Shown piece after piece: positions 13,977-34,785 of a stretch of DNA of 35,674 nucleotides. Numbering within the stretch: position 1 is the stretch's first letter; every line of letters begins with the position of its first letter. A program made the position numbers and the translations under genes. Source of the stretch: Microcaldota archaeon (GTDB lineage Archaea; Micrarchaeota; Micrarchaeia; Anstonellales; Bilamarchaeaceae); assembly GCA_029557835.1 (NCBI GenBank), contig JAKQHW010000026.1:1-35674 (forward strand), read 5' to 3'. A model generated the notes under the pieces. That model had not been told where the DNA came from and made no database searches. It saw nothing but the letters and a program-made list of their open reading frames with translations.

Positions 13977-13980
13977 AGTC

Positions 13981-14080
13981 AAAAACGCGGGGGAGGCGTC
14001 CCCCCCATTTTTAGACGTCATTCTGACCCCCCTCAACTTCACTTCATCACTCTTTACCCGTACTCCTTACGCGTTTCATT
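13981..14080 (-). repeat. Dispersed intergenic element, copy A (short form)
   Basis: Shares AAAAACGCGGGG...CCCCCCATTTTTAGacGTCATTCTGACC...CACTTC...TACTCCTTACGC with copies B and C. Confidence 0.8.
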
Positions 14081-14130
14081 TCCGTTGAGAGAGTGGAATA
14101 ATTCTACCCCTAATCTTTTTATAAAACTAT

Positions 14131-14244
14131 TTACGCTTCCTCGCAGAACGAGTAGCCGCAGTTCGGGCACCCCCTGCACCCCTCCCGGTATATTATCGCA
14201 AAGCCGCAAACCGGGCAGATCCTCTTCCTTTCCTCTTCGTCCAC
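14131..14244 (-). CDS. 37-aa zinc-ribbon microprotein
   Basis: GTG start, translation VDEEERKRICPVCGFAIIYREGCRGCPNCGYSFCEEA*. Six Cys (CxxC x9 CxxCxxC x4 C) and an upstream purine-rich ggggggagag. Below the 60-aa track cutoff. Confidence 0.65.
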   Translation of the reverse strand: MDEEERKRICPVCGFAIIYREGCRGCPNCGYSFCEEA

Positions 14245-14296
14245 ATACCTCTCCCCCCGCCCGGGTTTTAAACTTTTCCGGTAGAAATCCAATCAG

Positions 14297-14875
14297 GTGT
14301 CTTTTATGAATAGAAATCCGAAGGACGGAGAGGAGGCGTTGTCCCTCCTTTTGGATGGCAACAGGAAATTCATGGCCGGTAAGCTCACCCAATACGACCT
14401 TGCCGCGAGGAGGAGGGAGCTGCTAGCGGGCCAGCACCCGTTCGCGACGGTGCTCTGCTGCTCGGATTCAAGGATAGACCCGGTAAAGATATTCGACGCC
14501 AACCTGGGGGAGATATTCACCGTCGAATCCGCAGGCAACGTCGTGGACGACATCGCAATCGGCAGCATAGAATACGGGACAGGCCACCTCCACACCCCGA
14601 TCCTGGTCGTGCTCGCGCACGAGAAGTGCGGCGCCGTGACGACCTGCTGCGCGGGCGCGGTCTGCACCGGCCATCTCCCCAGCATAATGAAAAGGATAGA
14701 GCCCTCCGTTGTGAAGGGCGACGTGGAGGCGAGCACGGATGCCAGCGCCAAATCCACCAAAAAATGCATAATAGACAACAGCGAAGAGGTCCGCAACCTT
14801 GTGCTGGAGGGGAAGCTCAGGGTCGTCGTCGCAAAATACTGCCTGGAGAGCGGAGAGGTAAAGATACTGGAATGA
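14297..14875 (+). CDS. Beta-class carbonic anhydrase
   Basis: CCSDSRIDP, GEIFTVESAGNVV and AHEKCGAV provide the Cys/His/Cys zinc ligands. Confidence 0.93.
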   Translation: MSFMNRNPKDGEEALSLLLDGNRKFMAGKLTQYDLAARRRELLAGQHPFATVLCCSDSRIDPVKIFDANLGEIFTVESAGNVVDDIAIGSIEYGTGHLHTPILVVLAHEKCGAVTTCCAGAVCTGHLPSIMKRIEPSVVKGDVEASTDASAKSTKKCIIDNSEEVRNLVLEGKLRVVVAKYCLESGEVKILE

Positions 14876-14881
14876 TTCAGC

Positions 14882-16084
14882 ATGGCCGGGGAAAAGGAAT
14901 ATGAACTTAAGAAGATGGTGCGCAAGCTGAGGGAGTTCAGCGGCAGCGGCACCCAGCTCATCTCGGTATACATCCCGGCCGGCTATCCAATCCACGAAAC
15001 GGGCGGGAAGCTCCGAGAGGAGGTCTCCCAGGCCTCTAACATCAAGTCCAAGCAGACGCGGACCAACGTAACGGACGCGCTTGAGAAGATAATAAACTAC
15101 CTGAAGATGTTCAGGAAGACGCCAGACAACGGAATTGCGATATTCGCCGGCAACATCTCGGACAACCCCGCAAAGACCGACATCCAGCTCTTCTCGCTTG
15201 AGCCCCCGAGCAAGCTCAACGTTTCCATATACCGGTGCGACTCCCGCTTTTTCCTCGAGCCCCTCGAGCGCATGATGGAATCCAAGGATTCCTACGGGGT
15301 GATCGTGCTTGACGGGCGGGAGGCTACGCTCGCGATAGTCAAGGGCACCGACATCCAGGTCGTGGACCGGCTCATCTCCCACGCGCACGCAAAGGTCCGC
15401 AAGGGGGGGCAGAGCCAGAGGAGGATAGAGCGCCTGATAGAGGAGTCGATAGAGAAATACTACAAGCGGGTCGGAGAATCGGTGGACAAGCACCTCCTCG
15501 GGAGGGTAAAGGGCATAGTGGTGGGCGGCCCCGGCCCCACAAAGGAATTTTTCGTAAAGATGTCCCCATTCAATTACCAGATAAAGGTGATGGGGGTCGT
15601 GGACACCGGCTATACGGACGATTTCGGGGTGAGGGAGACACTCTCAAAGGCCGAGTCCATCCTGGAGGGGCAGGAGATGGTGCGCGAACGCGCACTCGTG
15701 GAGCGCTTCATAAAGGAGGTCGTGAAGGAGGGGCTTGCCACCTACGGGCTGAGGGAGACCATGGAGGCGGTCGAGACCAAAAGGGCCGACACCGTTCTGG
15801 TCTCAGAAGGCCTCACATTCAACCTTGTCGAGTGGAAATGCTCATCCTGCGATGAGTCCCTCTCCAGGCCGACCAAGGACGAGCCGAAGCCGGTAAAGTG
15901 CCAGAAATGCGGCGCGGAGATGGAAGTAATGGGCGTGATCCCGCTCATTGATTACCTGATTGAGAACGCCGAGCAGAAGGGCATAAAGATGGAGGTGATA
16001 TCCACCAATTCGGTCGAAGGCAACCAGTTCCTGCACGGATTCGGGGGGATAGGCGCCTTCGTCAAATACAGGAAAAACTATTGA
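14882..16084 (+). CDS. prf1: Archaeal peptide chain release factor aRF1
   Basis: SNIKSKQTR (NIKS stop-codon recognition motif), KVRKGGQSQRRIERL (GGQ) and C-terminal zinc CSSCDES...CQKCG. Confidence 0.98.
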   Translation: MAGEKEYELKKMVRKLREFSGSGTQLISVYIPAGYPIHETGGKLREEVSQASNIKSKQTRTNVTDALEKIINYLKMFRKTPDNGIAIFAGNISDNPAKTDIQLFSLEPPSKLNVSIYRCDSRFFLEPLERMMESKDSYGVIVLDGREATLAIVKGTDIQVVDRLISHAHAKVRKGGQSQRRIERLIEESIEKYYKRVGESVDKHLLGRVKGIVVGGPGPTKEFFVKMSPFNYQIKVMGVVDTGYTDDFGVRETLSKAESILEGQEMVRERALVERFIKEVVKEGLATYGLRETMEAVETKRADTVLVSEGLTFNLVEWKCSSCDESLSRPTKDEPKPVKCQKCGAEMEVMGVIPLIDYLIENAEQKGIKMEVISTNSVEGNQFLHGFGGIGAFVKYRKNY

Positions 16085-16704
16085 GCTTCTTCCCCCTCTT
16101 CCGGATTTTCAGGCACATCCGCACCCGTCCCGTTCTGCTCAACACTGGTGTTCAATGCGGGCGGGATTGCGGGGAACGACGGCCCCGCCGGGCGCGCGCC
16201 TATGTTGCAATCGAACTGGACGTAGTTCTCCCCTATGCCCACCACCAGCTCATTCTCAAAAATCCTGGTCTCGTTGTATTTCCTTATGTACACTATCGAC
16301 TTTCCTGGCGCATCCCTCGCCGAGCCTATCTCCGACAGGCACTCGGAAAGCGGGACTGTCTTCGCGGTCCCGTCCTCCAGCGTGGTTATGCATTCCGAAT
16401 CAAGCGAGAATATCCTCTTGTCTATGTTGCCTATCGCCGTGCTGTATGATATGTCCACCGCGCACTGCATTATGTTCCGCCTGATGCTGTTCTCGCTTGC
16501 GCCCCTCAGGTCCATAACCACATACATCTCGGATGATGATGCAAGGTTGTCCGCGAAATCCTCCATATATGCCTCTTCCTTTCCGGCCCATAGGTCCGCT
16601 TCCTCCCCCTGGGGCTGCATGAAATATATGTAAGTGCCTATCGCAACCGCCAAAACCGCCAGCACAACGGCCGCCACAGTTTTCCCGTTCACTCCATCAC
16701 CCAT
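16078..16704 (-). CDS. Single-pass membrane-anchored protein with four-Cys extracytoplasmic domain
   Basis: N-terminal TM VAAVVLAVLAVAIGTYIYFM. The domain resembles the C-terminus of the upstream gene product. Confidence 0.65.
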   Translation of the reverse strand: MGDGVNGKTVAAVVLAVLAVAIGTYIYFMQPQGEEADLWAGKEEAYMEDFADNLASSSEMYVVMDLRGASENSIRRNIMQCAVDISYSTAIGNIDKRIFSLDSECITTLEDGTAKTVPLSECLSEIGSARDAPGKSIVYIRKYNETRIFENELVVGIGENYVQFDCNIGARPAGPSFPAIPPALNTSVEQNGTGADVPENPEEGEEAQ

Positions 16705-18821
16705 TCGTTTCCAGGGCCGGCCTGCGCCTGTGCCGCGCCCGCCTCAACCGGGACCGAAAGCATTGTGGCGACCTCGCAGCCCTGGAAATACTGCTCGTCC
16801 CCGGTGAATATGGCATTGTCCACGAAAACCACCGAGAACTCCGGCCTCGTTGGAATTGCGGAATACTTGAGCGTTATCATCGGCTCCTCGACCGCATTGT
16901 AGCAGCCCTCAAGCGTGCCCCCCTGCATCGTTATGCAGTCCCCGTTCACCTTTTCGTATATTGTTACCTGCCTCGGCGACAATTTGTCCGCCATCTTCTG
17001 TGCGCAGGATTTCATGTGCGCCAGCGCCCCAGGGCTGACGCCCTGCCCTTCGACGATTATCGCGACATTCCCGGATTTTGCGAGCGAAGCCCGGTATTCG
17101 GAGAAGTCCGCATCCGATGACGCCCCCTTCAGCGTGAAGTACGCGCCGGCGGAAACCGCTCCGACCGCGAGCAGGCCCATCCCTAGGAAGACGAATCCCA
17201 CAAACATGGCGCCCCTGCTTTTCCTCCTGCTGGCCACCCTTGCGAAAAAGAACAGGAACCCCAGCGCAAGCAGCGAGCCAAGCGAAAAGAATGAAAGAGT
17301 GGACAGCATAAGCGGCGTGAACTCCGAAAGGTGCTCCTTGTCCTCCCGGCTCATTGGCTGCACCGCAGCCGCTACGTCCAGCACCCCCTCGTTGGTGTTC
17401 CTTGCCGCGGCCATGAAAGGGCTCATGTAAACGCTTCCAGAGGAAACGCCCCTGACAATCGGCTCGGCGGCCCGGGTTATCTCCAGGTAGCCATCCCTCA
17501 TCTCCGTATACCTCTCCGGGGCCAATCCGGCCACGAACCCGCGGTCCAGGTTCTTCTTCCTTGCGGAAAGAGCAGCCGCAGTTGCCGCCTGCTCTTCGTT
17601 CAGGTTCGAGGTTTCCAGTATGAATATCGAAACCGCGGCCTCCCCCCGGGCCTGCTCGGTTGAATTGTAAATCTCCCACTGCCCCGGGACTGCGGCCCCC
17701 ATCCTCGCCGTCCTGGCCCTCAGCTCGTCCATCGATGCGTTTATGTCCGCGAACTGCCCGGCCAGAAGGTCCGCATCAACCTTCGCAATCAAGGCGTCGA
17801 TCCTGTCCGCATCCGCCTTCACTGAATTATTCGCGACCACCGCTAGCAGCGCCCTCGCATCCGAAACCGCCCTCTGGGATGCCGCCTTCTGCGGGTCATA
17901 ACTCGAACGGTAATACGCGCGCGCCGCATTGTCCTCAGCCATCCTCACCCGCGCATCCGACCTCTCGCCAATCAGCGTACCGAGCGCGCTGTAGTCCCCC
18001 AGCATCTCGGTCTTCCTCAACAGAGCATCTATCTTCACTTCCGCGCCCTCAAGGTGCTCCTCGTCTATGAGTATCCTCGGGCATAGCCCGATGCAGTCCC
18101 TGCACCTGTCCTCGCCCCTCGGGAGCCTGAACCGGGTGGATTCAAGGGCCGCCTCATCCTCGAGCATCCCCGGTATCATCGCCTTCAGCTCAACCAATGA
18201 CTCCCTTATGTTGCTGCCGTTCATATTGTCAAAAAGCTCCTCCGCCCTTTTCTCGCATTCGGTCAGGCGGTTGCTCGCAAAAGAGAACGACTCTATGTCC
18301 GGCTGTATGTCCGAAAGCTTTGAGCATCCGAGCGCATCCCCGTATTCCTCGCACATGAAGAGCGCGGTATAATGGCAGTTGCTGCTGTTCGTGCATGGGA
18401 ACACATTGAGGAACATGCTGTACCTGCAGACCTCCTCCTCCATGCCCATCCTTTCCTTCATCCCCGGCAGCTGTACTTTTGTGTTGGGATAATCATCCCC
18501 GTTGTTCCTGCTGTCATGGTATGCCCCGAAGTCCGCCCTCAGCGCCGCAATCTCCGCGTCGGTTGGATAGTAAAGGTCGGTGAAATGCTTGTTCACGACC
18601 CGCCCTATGAGCGCATGGTCCGTTATTATGCTGTGGCTCCCGTCAATGAGGAAGGTCGGCTCCCCCCCGATATACACCAGGGTGTAAGGCACCCCGCCAA
18701 CAATAAAGGTGCTCTGGTCCGTTATCGCCTCGCCCGGCGCAAGATACTGCGTAAGGTCGGCGGAGAATGCTGCGGGGAGCAGCAGTAATAGTCCTACTAC
18801 GAGGCTGGTGGTCGGTCGCAT
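16689..18821 (-). CDS. Large exported Cys-containing membrane protein with C-terminal four-Cys domain, unknown function
   Basis: Signal peptide MRPTTSLVVGLLLLLPAAFSA, two TM segments near aa 500-570, several Cys pairs. Start of the 16078..16704 gene overlaps its stop. Confidence 0.75.
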   Translation of the reverse strand: MRPTTSLVVGLLLLLPAAFSADLTQYLAPGEAITDQSTFIVGGVPYTLVYIGGEPTFLIDGSHSIITDHALIGRVVNKHFTDLYYPTDAEIAALRADFGAYHDSRNNGDDYPNTKVQLPGMKERMGMEEEVCRYSMFLNVFPCTNSSNCHYTALFMCEEYGDALGCSKLSDIQPDIESFSFASNRLTECEKRAEELFDNMNGSNIRESLVELKAMIPGMLEDEAALESTRFRLPRGEDRCRDCIGLCPRILIDEEHLEGAEVKIDALLRKTEMLGDYSALGTLIGERSDARVRMAEDNAARAYYRSSYDPQKAASQRAVSDARALLAVVANNSVKADADRIDALIAKVDADLLAGQFADINASMDELRARTARMGAAVPGQWEIYNSTEQARGEAAVSIFILETSNLNEEQAATAAALSARKKNLDRGFVAGLAPERYTEMRDGYLEITRAAEPIVRGVSSGSVYMSPFMAAARNTNEGVLDVAAAVQPMSREDKEHLSEFTPLMLSTLSFFSLGSLLALGFLFFFARVASRRKSRGAMFVGFVFLGMGLLAVGAVSAGAYFTLKGASSDADFSEYRASLAKSGNVAIIVEGQGVSPGALAHMKSCAQKMADKLSPRQVTIYEKVNGDCITMQGGTLEGCYNAVEEPMITLKYSAIPTRPEFSVVFVDNAIFTGDEQYFQGCEVATMLSVPVEAGAAQAQAGPGNEWVME

Positions 18822-18841
18822 GGGGCTTTTATTGCCCTTAC

Positions 18842-18853
18842 TTATTTATAAAG
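18842..18853 (-). promoter_or_regulatory. TATA box for the 18821 gene
   Basis: Minus strand ctttataaataa centred about 28 bp upstream of the ATG at 18821, consistent with a leaderless transcript. Confidence 0.6.
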
Positions 18854-18904
18854 TTTTTGAATTGAAGTGGGCCCAGCCCTTCAGCTTCACTATATTTTCC
18901 CTCC

Positions 18905-19062
18905 CCCAGAAGAAACGTGGGGGAAGCTAATTCGCTCCCCACCCTCCTTCACTGCAATTCCCTGCAACGGGGCGTCGACCGAACCCCCCCATTTTGAGGG
19001 TTCATTCTGACCCTCCTTCACTTCGCTTGGCATCGCTTTGCATGTACTCCTTACGCATTTCT
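18905..19062 (-). repeat. Dispersed intergenic element, copy B
   Basis: AAACGTGGGGG...CCCCCCATTTTGAGggTTCATTCTGACCCTCCTTCACTTC...TACTCCTTACGC. Contains an internal 13-bp direct repeat accctccttcact at 18941 and 19010. Confidence 0.8.
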
Positions 19063-19740
19063 GATCAGTTTTACTATATTTTCTCTCCCGCGCTTTATCC
19101 TCTTCACGTATCCCTGCGCTTCCAATCCCGAAACCAGAAGGCTCATCTTCGCCTCCGTGCATTTCATTATCTCGCGCAATTCCTTCTGGTTCCTCATCCC
19201 CTCGCTGTTTCCCAGTATCTCCAGCACTTTTTTCTCTTCCTCATCCAGCTTTTTCTTTTCCAAATGAATTTTCTCCACCGCCCCCTCCAGCATTTTCCTT
19301 TTCATGAAGAAATACGCAAGCGCAACTACCGCAACACCCAAGGCCGCCCCCAAAAAAATTAAAGGCGCCAAATCGTGCTCCTGCTCCGGAATTTCCTCAT
19401 CCAACCCCGGCACATCAAAACCAACAACGGCCTCGAACTCGTCCGGTGCAAACAGCACGAAATCATAAGAGGCGCCGCCCTCCCCGAGCATTATCCGGTC
19501 TTCGGCGTATCCCCCCAGTTTCCCTTCCGGGTAATAGAACGCCTTCACAGTGTACTCCCCGGCGGGAATGTCCATCGCATATGTTCCGTCCGTTGAAAAT
19601 GCCTGGTAGGTGGAGGCCCCCTCCGCCTTCACCACAACCCCCTGCACAGCATCAAAGCTGTCCATGCTGTAGATGCTCCCGCTCAGGTTCGCGGCATGCA
19701 ATGCAGCAAGAAGCGCAAAAAGCGCCCAAAAGGCCCTCAT
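19051..19740 (-). CDS. Exported/TM protein with C-terminal cytoplasmic winged-helix domain
   Basis: Signal peptide, carboxypeptidase-regulatory-like beta domain (SIYSMDSFDAVQGVVVKAEG...IPAGEYTVKAFYYPEG), TM LAPLIFLGAALGVAVVALAYFFM, then wHTH (EEEKKVLEILGNSEGMRNQKELREIMKCTEAKMSLLVSGLEAQGYVKRIKRGRENIVKL). Confidence 0.75.
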   Translation of the reverse strand: MRAFWALFALLAALHAANLSGSIYSMDSFDAVQGVVVKAEGASTYQAFSTDGTYAMDIPAGEYTVKAFYYPEGKLGGYAEDRIMLGEGGASYDFVLFAPDEFEAVVGFDVPGLDEEIPEQEHDLAPLIFLGAALGVAVVALAYFFMKRKMLEGAVEKIHLEKKKLDEEEKKVLEILGNSEGMRNQKELREIMKCTEAKMSLLVSGLEAQGYVKRIKRGRENIVKLIRNA

Positions 19741-19759
19741 GAGTCCCTATTCGTAAAAA

Positions 19760-19790
19760 AGCTTTCATAAAGCTTTCGCGAAAGTTTCGA
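19760..19790. promoter_or_regulatory. Palindromic operator-like site between divergent genes
   Basis: agctttcataaagctttcgcgaaagtttcga: perfect 12-bp palindrome CTTTCGCGAAAG at 19773-19784 plus a direct repeat of AGCTTTC. Confidence 0.45.
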
Positions 19791-19828
19791 TTTAAATGCC
19801 CGGTTCGAAGCCGGTGCTGGTGATTTGC

Positions 19829-20797
19829 ATGAAAAAGGCGATTTGGGCGCTTGCCCTGTTCGGGCTGATGTTCGCGGCCGCAAACGGCGCGGGCGCATCC
19901 CAGGACGTGAGGCAAAGCGTATTGGAGATGAGGTATGCGCAGATGGAATGCAGGGCGAATTTCATGTATGCATCCATGGGCAGCGCAGAGGACGCTGGCG
20001 GAAACCTTTCCGGTGACCGGAGAAACATGGAATCGGCCATGACACATCTGAGGGCATATGCCGTTTCAGGAGACGGCGCTGGTTTCAACCAACATATGGC
20101 CCAGACGCAAAACGCGTTCTCGGTAGCGGTGCGCAACATACATGGCGCAAGGGCCGGGGCGCTGAATGCCGCGGGCTCATGCAACGGCGGCGATGGCGGG
20201 CAAGGCGGCCAGGGCCAGGGCGGTGCACCAGTGTCCATATCCCCGGGATGCCAGGCAAGGACCCAGCTTTTGAACCAGCTCCGCACACGGCACGATGCGG
20301 CAAACTCAGAATATGCCGAGTGCATGAAGTCTGCCGTAAGGGGCAGGGTAAGGGCGGAAGTTTCGGAATTCAAAGGATGGGCAGCAAGGAGCCGGACGGC
20401 TGTAAGCGGCATGGAATCCCGCGGCTATACGGTTGCAGGGCTGAACAGGATAATGAATCAGGCAGAGGCCGAGGCGGATGCGCTTGAAGCGGAAGCGAGT
20501 TCCGGCACGGATGCCGATGCCCTCCTTGAGAGAAGGCAGGGGCGCCTTGGAAAGATATTCTATCTCTGGGCCCAGTTTCAGCAGGAAAGGATCGGCCTCC
20601 TGCTCGACCGCTTCCAGGGGAGGACCAGCGGATACGAGACCGAGATTGCGGAGATAAGGGCGATACTCGCCAATGCCGCGAGCCTTGGAGATGATGAGGC
20701 CTACACCGCAGAAGAGGCGCAGGAGTCCAGGCGGCTTGTCGGAGTTGCCGCGCAGCAGTTCGGCGCGCTTGTCGGAGAAGCGAGGGGAGAGGAATGA
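19829..20797 (+). CDS. Secreted alpha-helical protein, unknown function
   Basis: Signal peptide MKKAIWALALFGLMFAAANGAGA from the ATG at 19829, Gly-rich linker (NGGDGGQGGQGQGG), helical remainder. Confidence 0.65.
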   Translation: MKKAIWALALFGLMFAAANGAGASQDVRQSVLEMRYAQMECRANFMYASMGSAEDAGGNLSGDRRNMESAMTHLRAYAVSGDGAGFNQHMAQTQNAFSVAVRNIHGARAGALNAAGSCNGGDGGQGGQGQGGAPVSISPGCQARTQLLNQLRTRHDAANSEYAECMKSAVRGRVRAEVSEFKGWAARSRTAVSGMESRGYTVAGLNRIMNQAEAEADALEAEASSGTDADALLERRQGRLGKIFYLWAQFQQERIGLLLDRFQGRTSGYETEIAEIRAILANAASLGDDEAYTAEEAQESRRLVGVAAQQFGALVGEARGEE

Positions 20798-21054
20798 AGG
20801 AAGGGCTTTTTGCGCTCCTTTCCGTTTCCTTTCTTCTGCTGGGATGTGCCGGTGGAGGCGCCGGGATAAGTTCCGGCGAAATCCCCCCTGACGAGATTGG
20901 TTTCGGCCTGGAGGATGACGGAACGTCCCTCCCACAGGCAGTCCCTTCAGGCACCGTCAGCTCCATGGACATCAGCGACGAGGACCTGGCCCTTGATGAC
21001 CTGTACATAGACCTTGGGGATGACAGCACGGCGCTTCCGGAGGCCGTAAGTTGA
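20794..21054 (+). CDS. Small acidic putative lipoprotein
   Basis: Start overlaps the upstream stop (ATGA). Signal ending LLLGCAGGG (lipobox-like), then an acidic tail. Confidence 0.6.
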   Translation: MKEGLFALLSVSFLLLGCAGGGAGISSGEIPPDEIGFGLEDDGTSLPQAVPSGTVSSMDISDEDLALDDLYIDLGDDSTALPEAVS

Positions 21055-21055
21055 G

Positions 21056-21451
21056 GTGAAGAAAATGATGAAGGAGTTCGAGTCCGGTGCAAATGCCGCG
21101 GAAGGCAGGAAACCCGTCCGCGCCAGCCCCCTGCTCGGGAACCAGAGGATGGCAAGGCTGGTCAGGGACCTCTTCAGCGAGGCCCGCAATGAGAGGGTTT
21201 TGGCTGCACGGGAGCTCAGGCACATCGCAGGCAAGGGCGGGGACATATCCGAGGCATTCCCCGCCGTCCTCGCCTCCCTCCGCCAAAGGGAGCGCGATGT
21301 TGCGGACAACCTCCTTTGGGCGGCCAGGTATGCGCACAGGAATGGCTTCGACATATCCAATATGCTCCCATCCATCGCCATTCTGCGCAATTCGGGGGAT
21401 GGAACCACCCGCGGGCTCGCAACAATAATCTGCGAAACCGCGGGAGGGTAA
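21056..21451 (+). CDS. Hypothetical helical (HEAT-like) protein
   Basis: 131-aa ORF one base after the lipoprotein gene. Helical repeats ARLVRDLFSEARNERVLAARELRHIAGKGG... / AFPAVLASLRQRERDVADNLLWAARYAHRNG. Confidence 0.5.
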   Translation: MKKMMKEFESGANAAEGRKPVRASPLLGNQRMARLVRDLFSEARNERVLAARELRHIAGKGGDISEAFPAVLASLRQRERDVADNLLWAARYAHRNGFDISNMLPSIAILRNSGDGTTRGLATIICETAGG

Positions 21452-21459
21452 CCCTTTCT

Positions 21460-22770: not shown

Positions 22771-22774
22771 TCCA

Positions 22775-23104
22775 TCACTTCCCCAGCACTGCAATGGCCG
22801 CCGCCACCCCGGCAAGCAGAAGCGCGAACATGTTCACGGGCCCGGGCATGTTCTGGAATATCAGGTAGTTCATCACAAGCGTTGCCAGTATCAGCACAGC
22901 CGTCCAGATTATGTGCGCGGTTATGAAACTGCTTTGAGCAGTCCCGTCGTGGTATCCCCAAGCGATGAAATACTGCGCAAGGAGGAGGATAGGCACCATC
23001 ATCGCAAAATTCCTTATGTTGAACTCGTTCTTTGAAAGCCATCCGTTGCCCAGCTGTATGCCCAGGGCTCCCACCAGCAGCATGATCACAAATATGTATT
23101 CCAT
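22775..23104 (-). CDS. Small four-TM membrane protein, unknown function
   Basis: 109-aa product from the ATG at 23104 (MEYIFVIMLLVGALGIQLG...). The longer track ORF start would run antisense into the CaCA gene. Confidence 0.6.
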   Translation of the reverse strand: MEYIFVIMLLVGALGIQLGNGWLSKNEFNIRNFAMMVPILLLAQYFIAWGYHDGTAQSSFITAHIIWTAVLILATLVMNYLIFQNMPGPVNMFALLLAGVAAAIAVLGK

Positions 23105-23186
23105 AACCCGTCCACCCCCTTTGGCGTCCGCCATGCAGCCGTTTCCAGCGCAACATTTTAATACCTCATTCCGGAAACCCATTGCA

Positions 23187-24179: not shown

Positions 24180-24189
24180 CCCTTCCGAG

Positions 24190-24582: not shown

Positions 24583-24596
24583 GGTTTTGGTTTCCC

Positions 24597-26103: not shown

Positions 26104-26155
26104 ATGGAGAAAAAGCCACCAAAAACTATTTAACTTTCCTCTTTTTACCCTTACC

Positions 26156-27367
26156 ATGGCCAAAGCTATCGTTCTGGTGATGGACGGCGTGGGTGACCTT
26201 CCCGACGCAAAGGGATACACCCCCCTCTCGGCAGCCCTGAAGCCCAACATGGACCGGCTCGCCGAAGAGGGTTCCACCGGGCTTTTCTCGTCCATCGGCA
26301 GGGGCATCGTCCCCGGAAGCGACACTTCCCACCTGAACATCCTGGGATACGAATATGAGAGATATTACCCGGGAAGGGGCCCGCTCGAGGCGCTGGGCGC
26401 AAAATTCCCCCTCAAGGACGGGGACATAGCGTTCCGGGCAAATCTCGCCACCGTGGACAACGGGAAGATATGGGACAGGCGCGCGGGAAGGATAACCACT
26501 GAGGAGGCCAGGGTTTTCGCGAAATACGTGCAAAAAATGCCCCTCGGCAACGGGGTGGAAGCCATCTTCCAGCCCACCGTGGAGCACCGCGGCATCCTCG
26601 TTTTGAGGGGCAAGAACCTGAGCCCCAGCATCACCCCGACCGACCCGCATGCCTCCTCTGTCCCGCTGCCGAAATCCCTCCCCCTGGACCCGAAGGACAA
26701 GGCCGCAAAGCGCACCGCCGAGTCCCTCAACAAATTCACGAAGATGTGCATGCAGAAGCTGGAAAAGGCCAGGGAAAACAGGGAGAGGAAGCGCCCTGTG
26801 AACGCAATAATCGCCCGCGGCGCCGGCACCTATTCCCAGATAGAGCCCATGTTCCAGCGCTTCGGCGTCCGTGGCGCCTGCATCGCGGGAGGGGCCCTTT
26901 ACCGGGGCGTCGCCGCATATGTGGGCATGGACATAATTGAGGTGAAGGGCGCGACAGGCACCTTCGAGACCGACCTGAAGGCAAAGGGGAAGGCCGCGCT
27001 CCAGGCCCTCTGGTCCCATGATTTCGTGTTCGTGCACGTGAAGGCCACGGACTCGTTTTCCCACGACGGCAAGTTCGACGAGAAGAAGAACTTCATAGCG
27101 AAGGTGGACAAGGAACTGATGCCCACACTCCTGCGCGGCAACTGCCACATAATCATCACCGGGGACCATTCCTCGCCCGTGAAAAGGCGCGCCCATTCCG
27201 GCGACCCCGCCCCATTGCTCATCTGGGGCCCGGACGTCCGCAGGGACCAGTCCAGGAAATTCGACGAGTTCGCATGTGGGGAGGGGAGCCTCGGGAATGT
27301 CAGGGGGACCGAACTATTCCACATAATGCTCAACCTAATCGAAAAGCAGAAGATGTGCGGGACGTAA
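26156..27367 (+). CDS. apgM: Archaeal-type 2,3-bisphosphoglycerate-independent phosphoglycerate mutase
   Basis: KAIVLVMDGVGDLP, GRGIVPGSDTSHLNILGYE, ATDSFSHDGKFDEKKNFIAKVD, ITGDHSSPVKRRAHSGDPAPLLI. Confidence 0.95.
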   Translation: MAKAIVLVMDGVGDLPDAKGYTPLSAALKPNMDRLAEEGSTGLFSSIGRGIVPGSDTSHLNILGYEYERYYPGRGPLEALGAKFPLKDGDIAFRANLATVDNGKIWDRRAGRITTEEARVFAKYVQKMPLGNGVEAIFQPTVEHRGILVLRGKNLSPSITPTDPHASSVPLPKSLPLDPKDKAAKRTAESLNKFTKMCMQKLEKARENRERKRPVNAIIARGAGTYSQIEPMFQRFGVRGACIAGGALYRGVAAYVGMDIIEVKGATGTFETDLKAKGKAALQALWSHDFVFVHVKATDSFSHDGKFDEKKNFIAKVDKELMPTLLRGNCHIIITGDHSSPVKRRAHSGDPAPLLIWGPDVRRDQSRKFDEFACGEGSLGNVRGTELFHIMLNLIEKQKMCGT

Positions 27368-27396
27368 TAAAGAAAGAAAATGGAAAATAAAGAAAT

Positions 27397-27933
27397 TCAG
27401 GAGACCTGGGCGATCCTTGAGATGACGTTCGCCTTTATCTGGTGCCTGACGGTCTGGTCTATATCGTTCGCGTAGTTGTACCAGACCACCATCTTGCCCC
27501 TGAATTCCTGGTTGGGCTGGCTTACAATCGGGTCCCCGCGCGAATCAACGCAGGGCACGCCCACCAATGTGATCGAGGCGCCGGCATTAAGCTGGTCCTG
27601 GACCTGGACGCTTGCTGGAGTAACCCTCCCGTGTGGGGGCACCTCGTTCCCAGGCGCGTTTGTGCACATTATCTCCTTGACCACTATGTTCTGCCCGGCC
27701 TGGTTCCACACCTTCACATTCATCTTCAGGTTCCCGTTGCCGTCCACATACAGCTGGGGCGGGGGCTCGTTGCATGTGAAGCCCGCCTGCTCGAAAAGGC
27801 AGATTTCCGGGGCCCTGAACGGGTTCAGGAATATGAGCGCGGCAATCACGAGCACAATCGCAAGTATCGCCCACCCATATGTCATCAGGTATTCCATGGC
27901 CGCTTGGCCTTTCAGGTTGCTCATCTCATACAC
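27397..27933 (-). CDS. Type IV prepilin-like protein with class III signal sequence
   Basis: MSNLKGQAAMEYLMTYGWAILAIVLVIAALIFL: KGQAAMEYL class III processing site followed directly by a hydrophobic helix. Confidence 0.85.
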   Translation of the reverse strand: MYEMSNLKGQAAMEYLMTYGWAILAIVLVIAALIFLNPFRAPEICLFEQAGFTCNEPPPQLYVDGNGNLKMNVKVWNQAGQNIVVKEIMCTNAPGNEVPPHGRVTPASVQVQDQLNAGASITLVGVPCVDSRGDPIVSQPNQEFRGKMVVWYNYANDIDQTVRHQIKANVISRIAQVS

Positions 27934-27934
27934 C

Positions 27935-28993
27935 TCATATCATTGTCGCGAATATCGACTGCAGGAAAGATGACACCACGAAATAAACCATGTATGCCAC
28001 CACCAGCATGAACGGGAAGAACTTCAGCCCCTGCGTCTTGGCGCCGGTCTGTATCGTCCCAAGCAGCAGCGACGCGATCAGGCACGTCACGAATATGGTC
28101 GCCACGCTGAACCACTGGAACTCGTCCGAGGTTATTACCGGCGCGGAAGGCTGCACAAACGTCATCTGGGGCACCTGCCCGCCCAGCCCGCCCGGAGGCA
28201 GGTAGGAGAACGCGATCGCAAGCACCTCTATCAGCCTGCTCGCGACCGAGAACAGGAACGGGGTCCCCAGCACGGACGCAAAAACGAGGAATATCACATA
28301 GACCAGCAATGTGGACGCTATGTCCTTCTTCTGTATCGCCACCTCCCTTGCATCCTCCGCTGTTATTTCCAGTATCTCCGCGACCTCCCCCCCGGTCGCC
28401 ATCGCCTGCTTCACAAGCAGCACGGTCCTCTCCAGTATCTTCGAATTGAACCTCATCGCGAGCCTGTCCAGCGCCTTTTCGAACGGCTCCCCGCTGAACG
28501 AGCTCTTTATCACATTCTTCACTTCTATGGAAAGTATCCCGAACTCGGGCTTCGCCGCATACCACATCGCCTGGTCCACGGTCATGCCGGAACGCACGTT
28601 CGCCGAGATGAGGGCGAGGAAATCTGGCAATGCCGCCTCAACCGCGGACTTGCGCGCCTCCCCCTGCAGCTGCAGGAACACCCAGGCGAGCATCCAGACC
28701 GAGAACGTGACCGCGCCCGCCGCAACCAGCAGCGTGAGCAGGTATATCGCGAAATCCGGGAGGTAGAAGCCCTCCCCCATCACCGCGAGGAGGAAGTTCT
28801 GCAGCACCGAATAATTGAGCATGACCAGGAAAGCGAACACCGCGAGCAGTGCGGTTATCAGTATCAGGAAGCCGGCGAAAGCCTCCGCGGAATGGCCGTA
28901 CCCGGCCCCGCGAAGCATCCTCTCCATCCCCCTTATCCTCTCCCTTGAGAGGAGCCTCCCGACCGCCTCATAAAAGTTGTTGAACATCATCAT
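27935..28993 (-). CDS. GspF/TadC-like pilus assembly membrane protein (1)
   Basis: T2SF pattern: LPDFLALISANVRSGMTVDQAMWYAAKPEFGILSIEVKNVIKSSFSGEPFEKALDRLAMRFNSKILERTVLLVKQAMATGGEVAEILE. Confidence 0.88.
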   Translation of the reverse strand: MMMFNNFYEAVGRLLSRERIRGMERMLRGAGYGHSAEAFAGFLILITALLAVFAFLVMLNYSVLQNFLLAVMGEGFYLPDFAIYLLTLLVAAGAVTFSVWMLAWVFLQLQGEARKSAVEAALPDFLALISANVRSGMTVDQAMWYAAKPEFGILSIEVKNVIKSSFSGEPFEKALDRLAMRFNSKILERTVLLVKQAMATGGEVAEILEITAEDAREVAIQKKDIASTLLVYVIFLVFASVLGTPFLFSVASRLIEVLAIAFSYLPPGGLGGQVPQMTFVQPSAPVITSDEFQWFSVATIFVTCLIASLLLGTIQTGAKTQGLKFFPFMLVVAYMVYFVVSSFLQSIFATMI

Positions 28994-28996
28994 CCC

Positions 28997-29884
28997 TCAT
29001 ATAACATATTTCGGCCTCGAGCTCTCCACCATCGCCAGGAACAGGAACTGCACTACCGAAATCATCACGAACACCAGCAGCAGTATCGAGGCGTCAATCC
29101 CGAACCTGGACGAGCCTATGAGCGAGAGCAGTATCACCGCGAAAGCCAGCCCCAGCGACGGGAAGATTATCCCGAAAATCATGTAGAACATCACCAGCGG
29201 GTTCAGCTTCTGCCCGTACGCCTTCAGCGCGATCACCTGCTCCCTGAACACCTGGTTGAGCACGACCTCCAGGGAGTCCGCGACGTCCGAGCCCGAGTTT
29301 ATCGCGTTGGCTATCTGCAGCATTATCCTGTTGAAATCGTTCGAGGGGCAGTTCTGGATGACCTCCCTTATCGCCTGCGTCATCGACATCCCGAGTGTCA
29401 CCTTCTCCACTATGTGGTTGAACTCCATGCTTACCGCGCCGTATCCCCTCGAGACGCCCACCAGGGAATCGAAGAGCGGCATCCCGGATTTGAGCGCAAT
29501 CAGCAGGTGCCTACCCGCGAACACCAGCTCGTAGTCTATGTCCCTTTTCCTTTTCGTTATCTTCACGTCGGGGTACAGCATGAAATACTGGTAGCACATG
29601 AAAATGTAGGCGAGGAAGAGCGGGGCCAGCCATATGGCTTCGACATTTATGGATTCGAAGAAAAAGAACGTCAATACGGTGAGCACCACCGCGCCGATTA
29701 GCGCGGAAACCACCACGCCGTTCAGGAACTCCTCCGGGCCCTTTTCTATCCCGGCCATCGTGAGCTTCTTCTTCATGTTCGGGTAATACGGCATCAGCCA
29801 TTCGGACACGGCCATCAACGGCTTCGCGCCCTTGCCCTTCTCCCGCACGGGGAGCGCAACCGGGGTAACTTTTGTCTTTTCCAT
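28997..29884 (-). CDS. GspF/TadC-like pilus assembly membrane protein (2)
   Basis: ELVFAGRHLLIALKSGMPLFDSLVGVSRGYGAVSMEFNHIVEKVTLGMSMTQAIREVIQNCPSNDFNRIMLQIANAINSGSDVADSLEVVLNQ. Confidence 0.88.
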   Translation of the reverse strand: MEKTKVTPVALPVREKGKGAKPLMAVSEWLMPYYPNMKKKLTMAGIEKGPEEFLNGVVVSALIGAVVLTVLTFFFFESINVEAIWLAPLFLAYIFMCYQYFMLYPDVKITKRKRDIDYELVFAGRHLLIALKSGMPLFDSLVGVSRGYGAVSMEFNHIVEKVTLGMSMTQAIREVIQNCPSNDFNRIMLQIANAINSGSDVADSLEVVLNQVFREQVIALKAYGQKLNPLVMFYMIFGIIFPSLGLAFAVILLSLIGSSRFGIDASILLLVFVMISVVQFLFLAMVESSRPKYVI

Positions 29885-29901
29885 CCGCTCACCACCTATC
29901 C

Positions 29902-31275
29902 TTATCCACCGCCCGTATTTATGCCTTTCCGCGCCCTTATGCGCCTGGCTTCCGCGAGGGCCTCCTCCCTCGCCATCTCCCCTCTCGAATATTTGGAGTA
30001 TTCCAGCGGCTCCTCCGCCTGCAGGAGCGCCAGCAGGTCCTCTTCGGTCTCGAACCCTGCCGCAGGGCCGCCCCTAGCCTCCGCCTTCCTCTTCTCCACT
30101 TCCGAATCTATGTCGCTCCATACCGCCTGCCTCAGGGAGAGGAACTCCGCGGCGTACGTGTCCGCCGCCTTCTCGGCCATTTCGCCCGCCCCCTTCAGCT
30201 TCCCCTTCTTCTCAAGCTGCCCGAATTCAGAGGAATGCTTGCCCACAAGGTATTTCTCATAGCTGGACGCAAGCCCGCCCACCTGCTCCCTGAGCTGCTC
30301 CGCCCTGGAGACGAAAGCCGGTAGCGCATCCGCCGCCTTCCCAAGCGCCGCCTCCTCCTCAAAATATTTCACCAGGGGCGCGAAGGCCCTCTCATACGCC
30401 TCGTTCACCGCCTTCTTCGCGGCCGCCAGCTCGTATTCCTGGTCGTTCCTCACGACCGCCATGATGTCCGCCTTGGGCGCGGCCGCACCCGCGGCCTTCT
30501 TGCCCGCCTCGGACAGTATCGTCTTGAGCGCCACTATCTCCTTCTTTATCTCCTCTCTCCTCTCGTTGGATTTCTCCCTGAAAAGCTCGCGCGTGAGCTC
30601 GAGCATCCTCTTCTTCACTTCCTCCGTGTCCACCTTCTTCCCGGCCTTGACCTCGCTCCCGAACTGCTTCTCTATCCTTTCCACCGTCTCAGTCGCCCCC
30701 TCCAGGGGCGAGACCATCAATATCGGCGGAATCCTTATCCTTATTTCCGGAACCTGCGTGGCCGCCCGCGGCCTTGGCGGCGGCGCCGCCCGCCTCTCCG
30801 CGATTGCCACCGGCACTTCTCCCCTGCCCTTTTCCTCCTCCTCAAATTCCGGTTTTTCCTCCCTCTTCTCTTCAAATTCGACTTCTCCTGCCCGGGCTTC
30901 CTCTTTTGCGGGCCCGATTTCCATTTCCGGCTCGGGGGGCGGGGGCGCAGGAGGCGCTGCCGCCTCCACTTCTTCCCTGCGCGGCACCATCGCCTCCATG
31001 ACCGCGCTGACCTTCTCCTCCGCGGGGGCCGCGGCAGGCGCCGGCGCTGCAGGCGCCTCTGCCCCGTACATCTTCATCAGCATCTCGCTGCCCGCAATGA
31101 CCTTTTCCACACGCCCGTTAAGCGTGAGCGCCTCTTCATAGCCCATCTCGGAGAACTCGGGCGGCGAGAACTCTATCCTCCTCCTGGCCGGCCCCCCCTC
31201 CCCTTCCGGGGCGGAATATTCCAGGGCCTTTGCCTCCACGGAACGGACAATCCCCGCCGCTTCCTCAAACTCCAT
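29902..31275 (-). CDS. Ala/Glu/Pro-rich cytoplasmic protein embedded in pilus operon
   Basis: 457-aa ORF, 3 bp from the ATPase gene and 17 bp from a GspF-like gene. Low-complexity linker, then a helical C-terminal domain. Confidence 0.75.
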   Translation of the reverse strand: MEFEEAAGIVRSVEAKALEYSAPEGEGGPARRRIEFSPPEFSEMGYEEALTLNGRVEKVIAGSEMLMKMYGAEAPAAPAPAAAPAEEKVSAVMEAMVPRREEVEAAAPPAPPPPEPEMEIGPAKEEARAGEVEFEEKREEKPEFEEEEKGRGEVPVAIAERRAAPPPRPRAATQVPEIRIRIPPILMVSPLEGATETVERIEKQFGSEVKAGKKVDTEEVKKRMLELTRELFREKSNERREEIKKEIVALKTILSEAGKKAAGAAAPKADIMAVVRNDQEYELAAAKKAVNEAYERAFAPLVKYFEEEAALGKAADALPAFVSRAEQLREQVGGLASSYEKYLVGKHSSEFGQLEKKGKLKGAGEMAEKAADTYAAEFLSLRQAVWSDIDSEVEKRKAEARGGPAAGFETEEDLLALLQAEEPLEYSKYSRGEMAREEALAEARRIRARKGINTGGG

Positions 31276-31278
31276 CTA

Positions 31279-32865
31279 TCAGAACACCCATTTCTCGTTC
31301 CTCTTCACGCTGTCCAGCACCTCCTCCCTGTTGAGGTAGTAGTGCGAGACAATCGAGCCGACCTCGTTGACCGACTCATACCCGTTCTTCACCATCCAGT
31401 TTAGCACATCGACCTTCTCCCAGACGTTCTCCTCTATCTCCTTGTCCGTGAGCCCGGAATACAGGTGCAGTATCTCGGAAATCCTGGACGCCCTCCCCAC
31501 CTTCGGGGTCTTGTCCGCCTTCGCGTCCCACCTGTAAACCACGTTGTATTCTCCGTTCTTGTGCACCTCCGCGAACTCCAGCGTCCTCCTGAGGTTGAAC
31601 CTCCTGTGCCTGAACTGCACCACCACTCCCGCAAGCGCGTCCAGCATCTCCTCCGGCACGTTTATCGGCGGGTTGGTGAGCCTGGATATGGCCTGCTCCG
31701 TGTTGTCCGCGTGCAGCGTCGCGTACACGCTGTGGCCGGTGTGCATCGCCTCGAAAAGTATCTCCGCCTCCTTCTGCCTCCTGACCTCCCCGACGATTAT
31801 TCTGTCCGGCCTCTGCCTGAGCGCGTTCACCATCAGGTCCAGCATGGTTATCTCGCCCTTCCCCTCCGGATTTGGCTCCCTCGTCACCATCGGCACCCAG
31901 TGGAGGAAGGACGGGAGGGTGAGCTCCCTCGTGTCCTCTATGCTCACTATCCTCTGGTTCGCGGGGATGAGCCCGGCAAGCGCGTTGAGGAAGGAAGTCT
32001 TTCCGCTTCCTGTGCCGCCCGCCACCACCAGCGAGAGCTCGTTCTGCACGCACAGCCATATCATGGCCGCGACCTCCGAGGTTATCGTCTGGCCCCTTAT
32101 GAGGTTTGTTATGGTCCAAGGGTTCTTCGAGAACTTCCTGATGACCATTGTATTCCCGAAATTGGAAACCGGGAATAGCGTCGCGTTCACCCTGTCCCCG
32201 GTGGGGAGGTGCGCGTCTAGAAGCGGGGTCAGGGTGTTTATCTGCCTGCCCACCTTCCTCGCCACCAGCGATGAGAAGTCGTATATCTGCTCCTCGTCCT
32301 TGAGCCTTATGTTGGTCTTGCACCATCCGTGCTTCTTATGGTATATCCACACCGGCTCGCTCGAATTGTTGACCGCAATTTCCTCCAGGAAATCATCGTG
32401 TAGCGGGGTCTCAAGCTCGCCCAGCCCGAGCGTGCTCTGCACGAGGTAGGACGCGAGTATCCCCTGCTTGTCCTCCGAGAGCATCGGAAAGTTCCTCTTC
32501 AGGACTCTCGCCGCCGCCTCCTGGAATTTCCTCTTGACCTCCGGCACCTTCTTCGGGTCCAGTATCTCGGTTATGTCCAGCTTGACCTCGGTTATCAGTT
32601 CGCCCCTCAGCTTCGTTTCAAGGAGGAGCTTGGTCCCTCCCGCGATGCCCGGTATCGAGACATTGTACATGGGCACGAACCCGCCCCTCATCTCCACGGT
32701 TATCTCGACAGGGATGTTCTCGCTGAGGAAGCTGTAGGAATCGACCACCTTTTCCCTCTGCCTCTCGCGCGGCTCCACCGGCGCGGGCTCGTCCTCGAGC
32801 GGCGCCGCCGGCTCTTCCCTGAACCTGCTGACAATCCCCTTTATTTCCTCTTTTCGCTCATCCAT
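31279..32865 (-). CDS. Type IV pilus/archaellum-like secretion ATPase (VirB11/TadA/GspE family)
   Basis: Walker A VVAGGTGSGKTSFLNAL, Asp box SIEDTRELTLPS, Walker B-like RPDRIIVGEVRRQKEAEILFEAMHTGHSVYATLHAD. Confidence 0.96.
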   Translation of the reverse strand: MDERKEEIKGIVSRFREEPAAPLEDEPAPVEPRERQREKVVDSYSFLSENIPVEITVEMRGGFVPMYNVSIPGIAGGTKLLLETKLRGELITEVKLDITEILDPKKVPEVKRKFQEAAARVLKRNFPMLSEDKQGILASYLVQSTLGLGELETPLHDDFLEEIAVNNSSEPVWIYHKKHGWCKTNIRLKDEEQIYDFSSLVARKVGRQINTLTPLLDAHLPTGDRVNATLFPVSNFGNTMVIRKFSKNPWTITNLIRGQTITSEVAAMIWLCVQNELSLVVAGGTGSGKTSFLNALAGLIPANQRIVSIEDTRELTLPSFLHWVPMVTREPNPEGKGEITMLDLMVNALRQRPDRIIVGEVRRQKEAEILFEAMHTGHSVYATLHADNTEQAISRLTNPPINVPEEMLDALAGVVVQFRHRRFNLRRTLEFAEVHKNGEYNVVYRWDAKADKTPKVGRASRISEILHLYSGLTDKEIEENVWEKVDVLNWMVKNGYESVNEVGSIVSHYYLNREEVLDSVKRNEKWVF

Positions 32866-32881
32866 ATGCCCTCACCGGTGA

Positions 32882-34585
32882 TTACCCTACATCCCACAGT
32901 CTCTTTATTAAATCCTTTAATTCTTTCCTTTTTTGCTCGAACTCGCCCTGCTCCTCCGCGGTGAGCCTTATGCGCTCCTCCCTATCTGCGGCCTCCTTCG
33001 GGCCCGGCGCCCCCTCCCTCAATGAGATGAGCTCAGCCTCCCTCGCGAGTATGCGTATGTTCTTCTCGATCCTCGCCGCCTTCTCGTTCAGCTCCGTGAT
33101 AAGCGCCCTTGCCTGCTCGAGCCCCTCCTTCTTCTCCTCCAGCTCCGCAAGCATGCGCACCGCGTCCTTCACGTTCTCGCTCCCCAGCGCCTCAGTCAGG
33201 TCCCCCAGCTTCCTCGTGGTCTCACCCTTGAGCGCAACCAGCTGCTTCGAAACTGCCTCGCTCTCCTCATTTATTCGTTCCAGCTGCGCGAGATGCTGGT
33301 CCACAGAAAGCTTGGTCTTCGCCTTTATCTTCTGGAAAGTGGAATATGTGGCCGTCTCCTCCTCCATCGCTTCCTTCACTTCCTTGGCCTGCTTCGACAT
33401 CGCCTTGCCTGCCTTCTCCACCTCGCCCCTGAGCTCCTCCAGCTCGCGCACCACCTCCCCGAACTGGAGCACATCCCCGGTCACCGCGCTCAGGTTCCTC
33501 TCGAACCTCTTGTACTCCTCAACAAGCTGCTCCTCCCTCCTCTCTATCCCGGACACCTGCCCGACGAGCGTGTCCTTGTCCGGGAGCTTCTCCATAACCT
33601 CGTGCGCCACCTTCAGCGCGTCCTCGTACTGCGCCACAAGCTCCAAATCCTCCTTCAGGTGGTTCTCTATCTCGGGCATGTTCCTTTTTATCGCCTCAAG
33701 CTTCGAGTAGTTCTCCTCCAGCTCCTTCCTCACGGAGGTGGAACTCTTGGACACGTTCGCCATCAGCTCCCTCACGGTCTGCAGCACCTCTGCGCTCTGC
33801 CTGAATTCCGAGATGAGTTCCTTCACGCTTCTGGATTCGTCCCTCACCTTCATGAATTCGCCCTGAAGGCGCTCCATGTCCCCCTTCAGCCCGGAAACCT
33901 CAACCCTCTTGTCCCCGCGCGGCGCCCTGCTCAGCGCAAGGTCCGCCTTGGCCAGCACGTCCGCCACGCGCCTCTCCAGCGCCTCCACCCTTGACCTGTA
34001 TTCCTCCAGGTCCGCGGCTTTCTTCCCCGTGCCCTCCCTGCCCATTATCTTCTGGTGTTCCCTCAGCTGCTTCTCCAGCTCGGAAACCGACTCCCTTATG
34101 GAGCCGACCTTGCCGGCCAGCTCCTCGATCCTATCCATCGTCTGCTTGGATACATCGCCCCTCCTCTCGCCCATCCCCTTCACTTGTTTCGAGAGGTCCT
34201 CGAGGCTCCGGAAACTCTCTTCAAAATGCGAATAGAGTTTTTCTATGCTCTCCGCCTGCTGCCTGAGCTCCTCCCTCCCTTTCCTCTGCACCTCCTGCAG
34301 CTGCCTCAGGTCGCCCTCCAGCACCGCTTTCCTCTTTTTGAATTCCGCCTTCTCGGCCTTCACCTGCTCCGGGGCCGGGGAAACCCATACAAGCCTCACC
34401 TCAGTGAGCTTGTACTCTATCCGTATCACCTTCTCATCCTCGAGCACGTGCGCCCAGTCCTCTATGGTCGCCGGCGGTATGCCGAGGAGCTTCGCCGCCA
34501 TGTTGAGCTCTACCTGCTTTTTCTCCTGCACAAGCCGTATGAGTGAGTCTACGCCCGTGGTTATCAGCAGTTCGTCGAACTCCAT
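32882..34585 (-). CDS. N-terminal winged-helix plus long coiled-coil protein
   Basis: Start at the ATG at 34585 (MEFDELLITTGVDSLIRLVQEKKQVELNMAAKLLGIPPATIEDWAHVLEDEKVIRIEYKLTEVRLVWVSP), then ~450 aa of heptad-like coiled coil. Ends 16 bp before the ATPase gene. Confidence 0.8.
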   Translation of the reverse strand: MEFDELLITTGVDSLIRLVQEKKQVELNMAAKLLGIPPATIEDWAHVLEDEKVIRIEYKLTEVRLVWVSPAPEQVKAEKAEFKKRKAVLEGDLRQLQEVQRKGREELRQQAESIEKLYSHFEESFRSLEDLSKQVKGMGERRGDVSKQTMDRIEELAGKVGSIRESVSELEKQLREHQKIMGREGTGKKAADLEEYRSRVEALERRVADVLAKADLALSRAPRGDKRVEVSGLKGDMERLQGEFMKVRDESRSVKELISEFRQSAEVLQTVRELMANVSKSSTSVRKELEENYSKLEAIKRNMPEIENHLKEDLELVAQYEDALKVAHEVMEKLPDKDTLVGQVSGIERREEQLVEEYKRFERNLSAVTGDVLQFGEVVRELEELRGEVEKAGKAMSKQAKEVKEAMEEETATYSTFQKIKAKTKLSVDQHLAQLERINEESEAVSKQLVALKGETTRKLGDLTEALGSENVKDAVRMLAELEEKKEGLEQARALITELNEKAARIEKNIRILAREAELISLREGAPGPKEAADREERIRLTAEEQGEFEQKRKELKDLIKRLWDVG

Positions 34586-34606
34586 GATTCCCCTTTTAAA
34601 AAGCAC

Positions 34607-34617
34607 CTTTATAAAAG
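34607..34617 (-). promoter_or_regulatory. TATA box for the coiled-coil/pilus operon
   Basis: Minus strand acttttataaagg about 27 bp upstream of the ATG at 34585. Confidence 0.55.
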
Positions 34618-34625
34618 TTGCGACC

Positions 34626-34785
34626 AAAAACGCGGGGAGGGCAAAAAACCCTCTTCGCCCCGAGCCCCATATATCGGGGCACGGGCCGAATCCCCCCATT
34701 TTTAGGTGTCATTCTGACCTCCTCCCACTTCACCAGGCAACGCTTTGCGCTCCCCCCTTGCGCAATGCAACCTTTGTTCATGCGT
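34626..34785 (-). repeat. Dispersed intergenic element, copy C
   Basis: AAAAACGCGGGGAGGG...CGAATCCCCCCATTTTTAGGTGTCATTCTGACCTCCTCCCACTTC...GGCAACGCTTTGCG. Includes hairpins GCCCC/GGGGC and GAGGG/CCCTC. Confidence 0.8.

Follow-up and report, generated by a model that had tools for sequence, protein, structure and literature searches.

Three related blocks in a Micrarchaeota contig

The window, meaning the whole 35,674-nucleotide stretch of DNA that was analyzed, was contig C61 of a 941,648-base (0.94 Mb) Micrarchaeota genome, here called G000. A core sequence, GGTCAGAATGANNNCNNAAAATGGGGGG, occurred exactly three times in the window, always on the minus strand, compared to an expectation of 0.00 in shuffled sequences. 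The original prediction of a three-copy block with a shared core (copies A, B, and C; Table 1) was therefore borne out in the window, and the shared ends, GC-rich hairpins, and non-triplet length differences were as it had described them.

The hairpin of copy A, which had the foot GTC/GAC, adjoined the 5' end of a tRNA-Asn gene at a distance of 0 to 1 nt (ARAGORN distance 0). Copy B, the lower limit of which was placed by hand from the hairpin, was flanked by two copies of a gene end. The left copy was part of an intact 229-aa gene (19051-19740) whose stop codon, TAA, was provided by the element, and every difference between the left and right copies was synonymous. Orthologues of this gene in genomes G001 and G004 ended without an element. 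We looked for a flanking duplication at copy C and found none.

Table 1. Features of the three element copies and their flanks in the window
Feature	Position	Strand	Evidence or remark
tRNA-Asn (GTT)	13904..13977	-	Rfam tRNA, 72.8 bits
Copy A, full length (5' half and hairpin)	13978..14072	-	Model R1, 109.5 bits, E 5.1e-27; alignment A3
Terminal hairpin of copy A, 16 bp, conserved 1-nt bulge, G.G mismatch	13978..14016	-	Model columns 57-95; covariation
Right copy of gene end by copy B (displaced end of the 229-aa gene)	18881..18905	-	0 nt after hairpin
Copy B, extra TTCGG...CGAA module in hairpin loop	18906..19056	-	
Left copy of gene end by copy B (GRENIVKL...)	19065..19089	-	88% repeat
Copy C, with loop module, between two divergent genes	34623..34763	-	Model R1, 73.1 bits

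Copies and distribution of the element family

A BLAST search of G000 with a 60-nt query from one copy yielded 23 matching stretches at about 20 loci. We also built a covariance model (R1) on eight copies without long loop insertions, using a gap-free alignment of 95 columns (A3). The model gave 49 matches in G000 at E<=0.1, a number that included antisense echoes of the hairpin, and 26 matches with stricter filters at E<=1e-6. The number of family copies was about 30 or more in G000 and 15 to 27 in each of four congeners, and G013 also had covariance-model matches. Thus, the predicted count of three and the single orientation held for the window but not for the genome, in which copies outside the window used both contig strands. 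A stricter search of 84 genomes from the order gave matches in each of the five genus members (14 to 26 at E<=1e-6), and the copies found outside the genus were scattered and patchy.

In the Rfam search of the window, tRNA alone produced matches and no family scored above its gathering score for the element. A virus-borne vector was rejected, as no IMG/VR contig had the exact core pattern. The element was not described in the open-licence papers that we searched, in agreement with the earlier remark that no described family was recognized. Element length was usually about 60 to 190 bases. One copy in G000 (C1:24702-24798) was located in frame within a protein gene, where it encoded ...GGGRYDYPKERRGVAPPSSSW..., and this stretch was absent from the G002 orthologue.

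There is good support for the view that the three blocks belong to a real, mobile, and undescribed family and that its insertions leave the target gene regenerated. The covariance-model search that had been proposed as a check recovered both further copies, in G000 and its congeners, and a covarying stem.

A covarying hairpin forms one end of the element

Read on the minus strand, the element consisted of a 5' half (GCGTAAGGAGTRCG...GTGAAGTGGGGG), then a small hairpin (GGTC-AGAAT-GACC), and finally a 16-pair terminal hairpin that contained a G.G mismatch and a conserved bulge. RNAalifold placed no pairs in the consensus fold of the 5' half from 67 copies. For the terminal hairpin, 96% of the cells were paired over 72 copies, two-sided changes were found in 14 of the 16 pairs, and the covariation score was 0.554 versus 0.197 in shuffles. 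The 72-copy alignment was fitted to the model and therefore leaned toward this structure, but the ungapped alignment of eight copies did not, and covariation was present in that alignment as well. The three outermost pairs changed as a set (GTC/GAC, CGG/CCG, GGA/TCC, AGA/TCT, CCC/GGG, or ACC/GGT).

Some copies carried extra hairpin modules in the loop (CAATAG... or TTCGG...CGAA), which explained the varying, hairpin-prone middle that had been noted in the window. There were two kinds of left end, GCGTAAGG or a G-run, and several copies had no 5' half and began at the G-run. We saw no terminal inverted repeats by eye, although they had been suggested as something to look for, and the left end GCGTAAGG was unrelated to the right end. 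A protein-coding block was considered because the core can be read as VRMTPKNGG. Hairpin covariation and non-triplet indels opposed this idea, in line with the earlier judgment that a shared protein was unlikely.

Two further features of the element bodies were observed. The loop modules CAATAGTTTCGCC..GCGAAACTGTGCGCATTTTTCCCGCGGGAAAAATAGC and TTCGGTCGACGCCCCG... recurred across subfamilies (L114, L140, L142, and others), as would be expected of small insertions in their own right. In addition, the copies G000:C18 (L104) and G000:C39:1664 (L105) had near-identical bodies and were both mosaics, with a 5' foot (CCGG) and a 3' foot (CTC) from different subfamilies, so that the foot was unpaired.

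The hairpin end abuts tRNA genes

The insertion boundary was sharp at the outer end of the hairpin. Among the 92 copies with flanks, at least 36, including copy A, had this end 0 to 3 nt from the end of a tRNA gene; the nearby tRNA end was the 5' end if the two were on the same strand and the 3' end if they were on opposite strands. We estimate that chance would produce well under one such case, assuming about 45 tRNA genes per genome. Break points within tRNA genes were in the anticodon loop and the T arm, which are places that tyrosine integrases use, and tRNA loops and ends are the usual integration sites in archaea (PMC8371274). At G000:C21, an intact tRNA-Thr was flanked by two copies, and beyond these copies lay two pieces of another tRNA-Thr, a 5' half and a 3' fragment. 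Occupancy beside the same tRNAs was kept in several congeners.

Gene ends are repeated around insertions, and some sites are empty in relatives

In 22 of 86 testable copies, the sequence from the hairpin end onward formed a direct repeat with the left flank; about two thirds of the copies had no duplication. Mismatched controls, in which left and right flanks of different copies were paired in two permutations, produced one repeat. The left repeat belonged to a host gene that was intact, usually to its 3' end and in some cases to its start, and the right repeat was a fragment of the same gene end that continued into native downstream sequence. The target-site duplications that had been proposed as a check were therefore present, but they were unusual: they were long and variable (14 to 95 bp), they were located at gene ends, and they were synonymously re-coded. 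About 20 target ends were unrelated to each other, and the single enrichment was a G at position +2 (53 of 85).

The target genes included a cupredoxin-like gene, a Trm1-like gene, and genes for MIP synthase, a KH-domain protein, and an AAA ATPase; we read one further target as PEP carboxylase (PPC). Comparison of the genomes identified empty sites. The MIP synthase gene carried the element in G004 and was empty in G000, G001, G002, and G003; PPC carried it in G002 and G004 and was empty in G001; the KH gene carried it in G002 and was empty in G001, G004, and G000; and the AAA ATPase gene carried it in G000 and was empty in G001 and G002.

The left and right copies were perfectly identical in several cases (C18, C14, and G001:C2). 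The duplications at C18 and C14 were also long (30 and 95 bp, respectively), and these two look more like target-site duplications. At G000:C14:894 (L019), the hairpin core was inserted behind the G-run of an older 5' half, and the 95-bp duplication took in that older 5' half.

Differences between gene-end copies are mostly synonymous

We compared 14 coding pairs with 188 codons, and found 60 synonymous, 6 non-synonymous, and 4 stop-codon-swap differences; the pairs were framed by hand and came from detectable repeats only, so the sample was not selection-free. Third positions held 63 of the 76 base changes between gene-end copies. When full drift or drift of one copy alone was simulated, 0 of 20,000 simulations in each case had so few amino-acid changes, even with only half of the changes neutral. 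With drift of the right copy, about 29 non-synonymous codons were expected and 6 were observed. The synonymous bias ruled out duplication followed by neutral drift, and the gene-end copies carried the signature of purifying selection.

Most simply, both copies would have been functional gene ends at the time of divergence, in which case the replacement came with the element and the right copy was the recipient's own end. In the MIP synthase gene of G004, the left end was like that of the G000 gene (AINAF, QY), and the right end had the residues of most other congeners (AVN).

Third-position differences were less common near the junction (8 of 36 within 15 nt versus 40 of 67 further off; p=0.0004), a distance effect of moderate weight because the detection method favors identity near the junction. 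With the same moderate weight, this identity fits the core of a site-specific recombination site rather than a guide from which the sequence has to escape.

Cargo genes and candidate enzymes

In a few copies, a cargo gene separated the regenerated target from the hairpin. At G000:C11, a 163-aa GNAT gene was located between an intact tRNA-Thr and the copy, which was followed by the displaced 3' half of tRNA-Thr from the anticodon loop on. At G001:C4, a 67-codon open frame, the stop codon of which came from the element, was located between an intact tRNA and the copy, and a T-arm fragment followed the copy. In G003, a Fic-domain gene was found between tRNA-Thr and a copy.

We did not find a consistently linked recombinase in these genomes; PF00589 matches were present in G000, G001, and G003, and absent from G002 and G004. 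An XerA-like tyrosine recombinase was found twice in G000 (one, of 311 aa, at C37) and twice in G003, and a truncated start was found at a G002 contig end. The integrase genes were outside the copies, but two adjoined a copy: at G003:C24 and G002:C31, the recombinase began just past the hairpin and tRNA-derived sequence. We view the XerA-like recombinase as a lead, not proof, for the joining enzyme. Absences of enzymes are weakened by the incompleteness of metagenome-assembled genomes.

The XerA-like family (L220, L214, L217, L221, and L128) scored below the cut-off of the model, with an E of 1.3e-17, and the recombinase reading frame of L220, L217, and L128 started in sequence of the tRNA 3' part. 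A repeated motif, GGAAACCGGAAACCCGAAACCGG and similar sequences, was found near integrase genes and elsewhere (L220 at about 1100-1300, L221 at about 1150-1300, and L163 at about 1500).

Other enzyme systems were also examined. A casposon or Cas1-solo derivative was rejected because G000 had no cas1 in a search whose positive control rang, and a retroelement was rejected because five of six genomes had no reverse transcriptase and G003 had one fragment. TnpB-type genes of about 400 aa were present in G000, G002, G003, and G004 (L164-L167, L169, and L173), even though the search for a Y1 transposase (TnpA) in these four genomes gave none. A TnpB/IS605 omega-RNA was rejected because the right end of TnpB elements (...GGGCGGGGAGCATGTCAC) was different and had no such duplications; there were no R1 matches beside intact tnpB genes. 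For IscB/HEARO there was no RRXRR match, a weak negative because no control genome rang. In two cases, G003:C29:2074 (L143) and G004:C50:5267 (L149), a hairpin copy appears to have inserted into a TnpB element at its left end (CCAGTGATGCCAGTAATGG).

A model for insertion and its alternatives

We give about an even chance to the explanation that the blocks are a miniature integrative element, the right-end hairpin of which is joined to the target by a site-specific recombinase with regeneration of the target. The right end would be the long hairpin, and insertion would connect its base to tRNA ends, tRNA loops, or the outermost ~100 nt at either end of protein genes. With a target inside a gene, the left side would bring a replacement for the severed gene end and make the gene whole, and the displaced native end would stay as a fragment to the right of the hairpin. 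Passage of the replacement end from one related species to another, along with the element, would account for the synonymous differences between the two copies. The joining enzyme would probably act in trans on the hairpin in an integrase- or integron-like manner, and copies at orthologous sites may have moved horizontally. The presence of copies in all five congeners and only patchily elsewhere, the four targets that are occupied in some congeners and empty in others, the start of right repeats at the hairpin end (22 of 86 versus 1 in controls), the predominance of synonymous codon differences between gene-end copies, the third-position identity near the junction that is expected of a recombination core, the tRNA break points, which match those of tyrosine integrases (PMC8371274), the regenerated target with its displaced fragment, as in integrated islands (PMC4383910), and the GNAT cargo that separates an intact tRNA-Thr from its displaced 3' half are consistent with this model. 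It is opposed by the lack of a consistently linked recombinase, by target cores that share no motif beyond the G at +2, unlike those of ordinary integrases, by the two perfect long duplications, and by the copies without a duplication. A bolder proposal, which we put forward tentatively as the less probable case, is that a selfish element of about 100 nt enters many essential genes, with a re-coded repair end for its target in each lineage. A trans-acting recombinase or guided nuclease would recognize the hairpin rather than the target, and "cleave or insert, and rescue" would operate without a protein of the element's own.

The perfect duplications at C18 and C14, the precision of the right end, and the two forms of left end are what might be left by a transposon or retroelement whose target-site duplications were long and variable, provided that the right copies were refreshed by recombination with element-free relatives. 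We consider this unlikely, given that a drifting right copy predicts many more non-synonymous codons than were seen (about 29 versus 6) and that reverse transcriptase (apart from the G003 fragment), Y1 transposase, and, in G000, cas1 were not found. RNA-guided homing ("cleave and rescue") would involve a hairpin RNA and right flank that guide a nuclease to the element-free allele, after which repair would copy in the element and an uncuttable, re-coded end. One nuclease could serve many targets, such a drive needs re-coded rescue ends of the kind that we observed, TnpB genes are present in four genomes, and the right flank is native and begins at the hairpin like a 3' guide. However, the differences avoid the first 15 nt, where the guide seed would be, several copies have perfect left/right identity, TnpB elements end in a different structure without such duplications, the IscB search (which had no positive control) produced no RRXRR match, and tRNA flanks would also target other tRNA genes; we regard homing as quite unlikely. 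Slightly less credible still is a host-useful RNA or DNA element, such as a bidirectional terminator or a tRNA-processing signal, that spread by its benefit. Conserved occupancy beside the same tRNAs, T-runs on both strands of the hairpin in one subfamily, and strong covariation speak for this possibility, but the TATGATTACC subfamily has no T-runs, and some copies separate a gene from the 5' end of a same-strand tRNA, a position in which a terminator would block the co-transcribed tRNA. Duplicated gene ends and the in-frame copy inside a protein gene are left unexplained by a host-useful element, as they are by the recurrent regulatory leader of the original prediction. Hairpins of the REP or IS200-IS605 type, mobilized by a Y1 (RAYT) transposase, are also small, imperfect, intergenic, and numerous, with a conserved bulge. 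This origin is very improbable because no Y1 transposase (PF01797) was found in six genomes in a search whose positive control rang, the model sequences had no GTAG or CGTC tag, and such elements are not known to produce duplications.

Comparison with known systems

The trace that defines integrated islands is a regenerated target accompanied by a displaced fragment (PMC4383910), and integration of SSV1 leaves a 44-bp repeat (PMC3293823). Like tRNA islands with tyrosine integrases (PMC4383910, PMC8371274), the element had a regenerated target on one side and a displaced fragment on the other, used the anticodon loop, T arm, and 3' end of tRNAs as sites, restored gene ends in a re-coded version, and at times carried a cargo gene. 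Unlike these islands, it was mostly 60 to 190 bp long without its own integrase, had dozens of targets per genome rather than one or a few specific att sequences, carried a common covarying hairpin at one end, and docked at tRNA 5' ends too. The Islander program drops candidates under 2 kb (PMC4383910).

Previously known target-rebuilding elements are islands several kilobases long that encode an integrase and have a fixed target, whereas the present element is free of protein, about 100 nt long, and marks dozens of tRNA and protein-gene ends of a single small genome in the same way. Moreover, the re-coding is visible codon by codon, and sister species have empty sites. If the model is confirmed, the family would show that disruption of a target can be coupled to its rescue in nature. 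It would also provide DPANN archaea with replaced gene ends and displaced tRNA fragments, and would point to a novel low-specificity recombination enzyme.

As in integron cassettes and archaeal attC sites (PMC9668308), a structure-conserved hairpin is the likely recombination site, and the few cargo-like genes include GNAT and Fic genes. In contrast to attC, the element had no RYYYAAC/GTTRRRY core boxes; by eye, its feet were GTCTAAAAA/TTTTTGAC and variants. It also differed from integron cassettes in being dispersed as single copies rather than arrays, in having no dedicated integron integrase, and in duplicating host gene ends.

The MITE-like label of the original prediction was apt in that the element is short, non-coding, and mobile, and less so with regard to the missing terminal inverted repeats and the unusual duplications. 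Prokaryotic MITEs (PMC10969869) are likewise short, non-coding, dispersed, and presumably moved in trans, but our element had no visible terminal inverted repeats, no short duplication of fixed length, and no parent transposon that we could find. REP elements differ in their terminal GTAG or CGTC tag and RAYT, and the target-regenerating pattern is not described for them (PMC3733652). With REP/GTAG and CGTC palindromes and Rickettsia palindromic elements, the family shares small intergenic hairpins in many copies and the occasional in-frame insertion in protein genes (PMC3733652).
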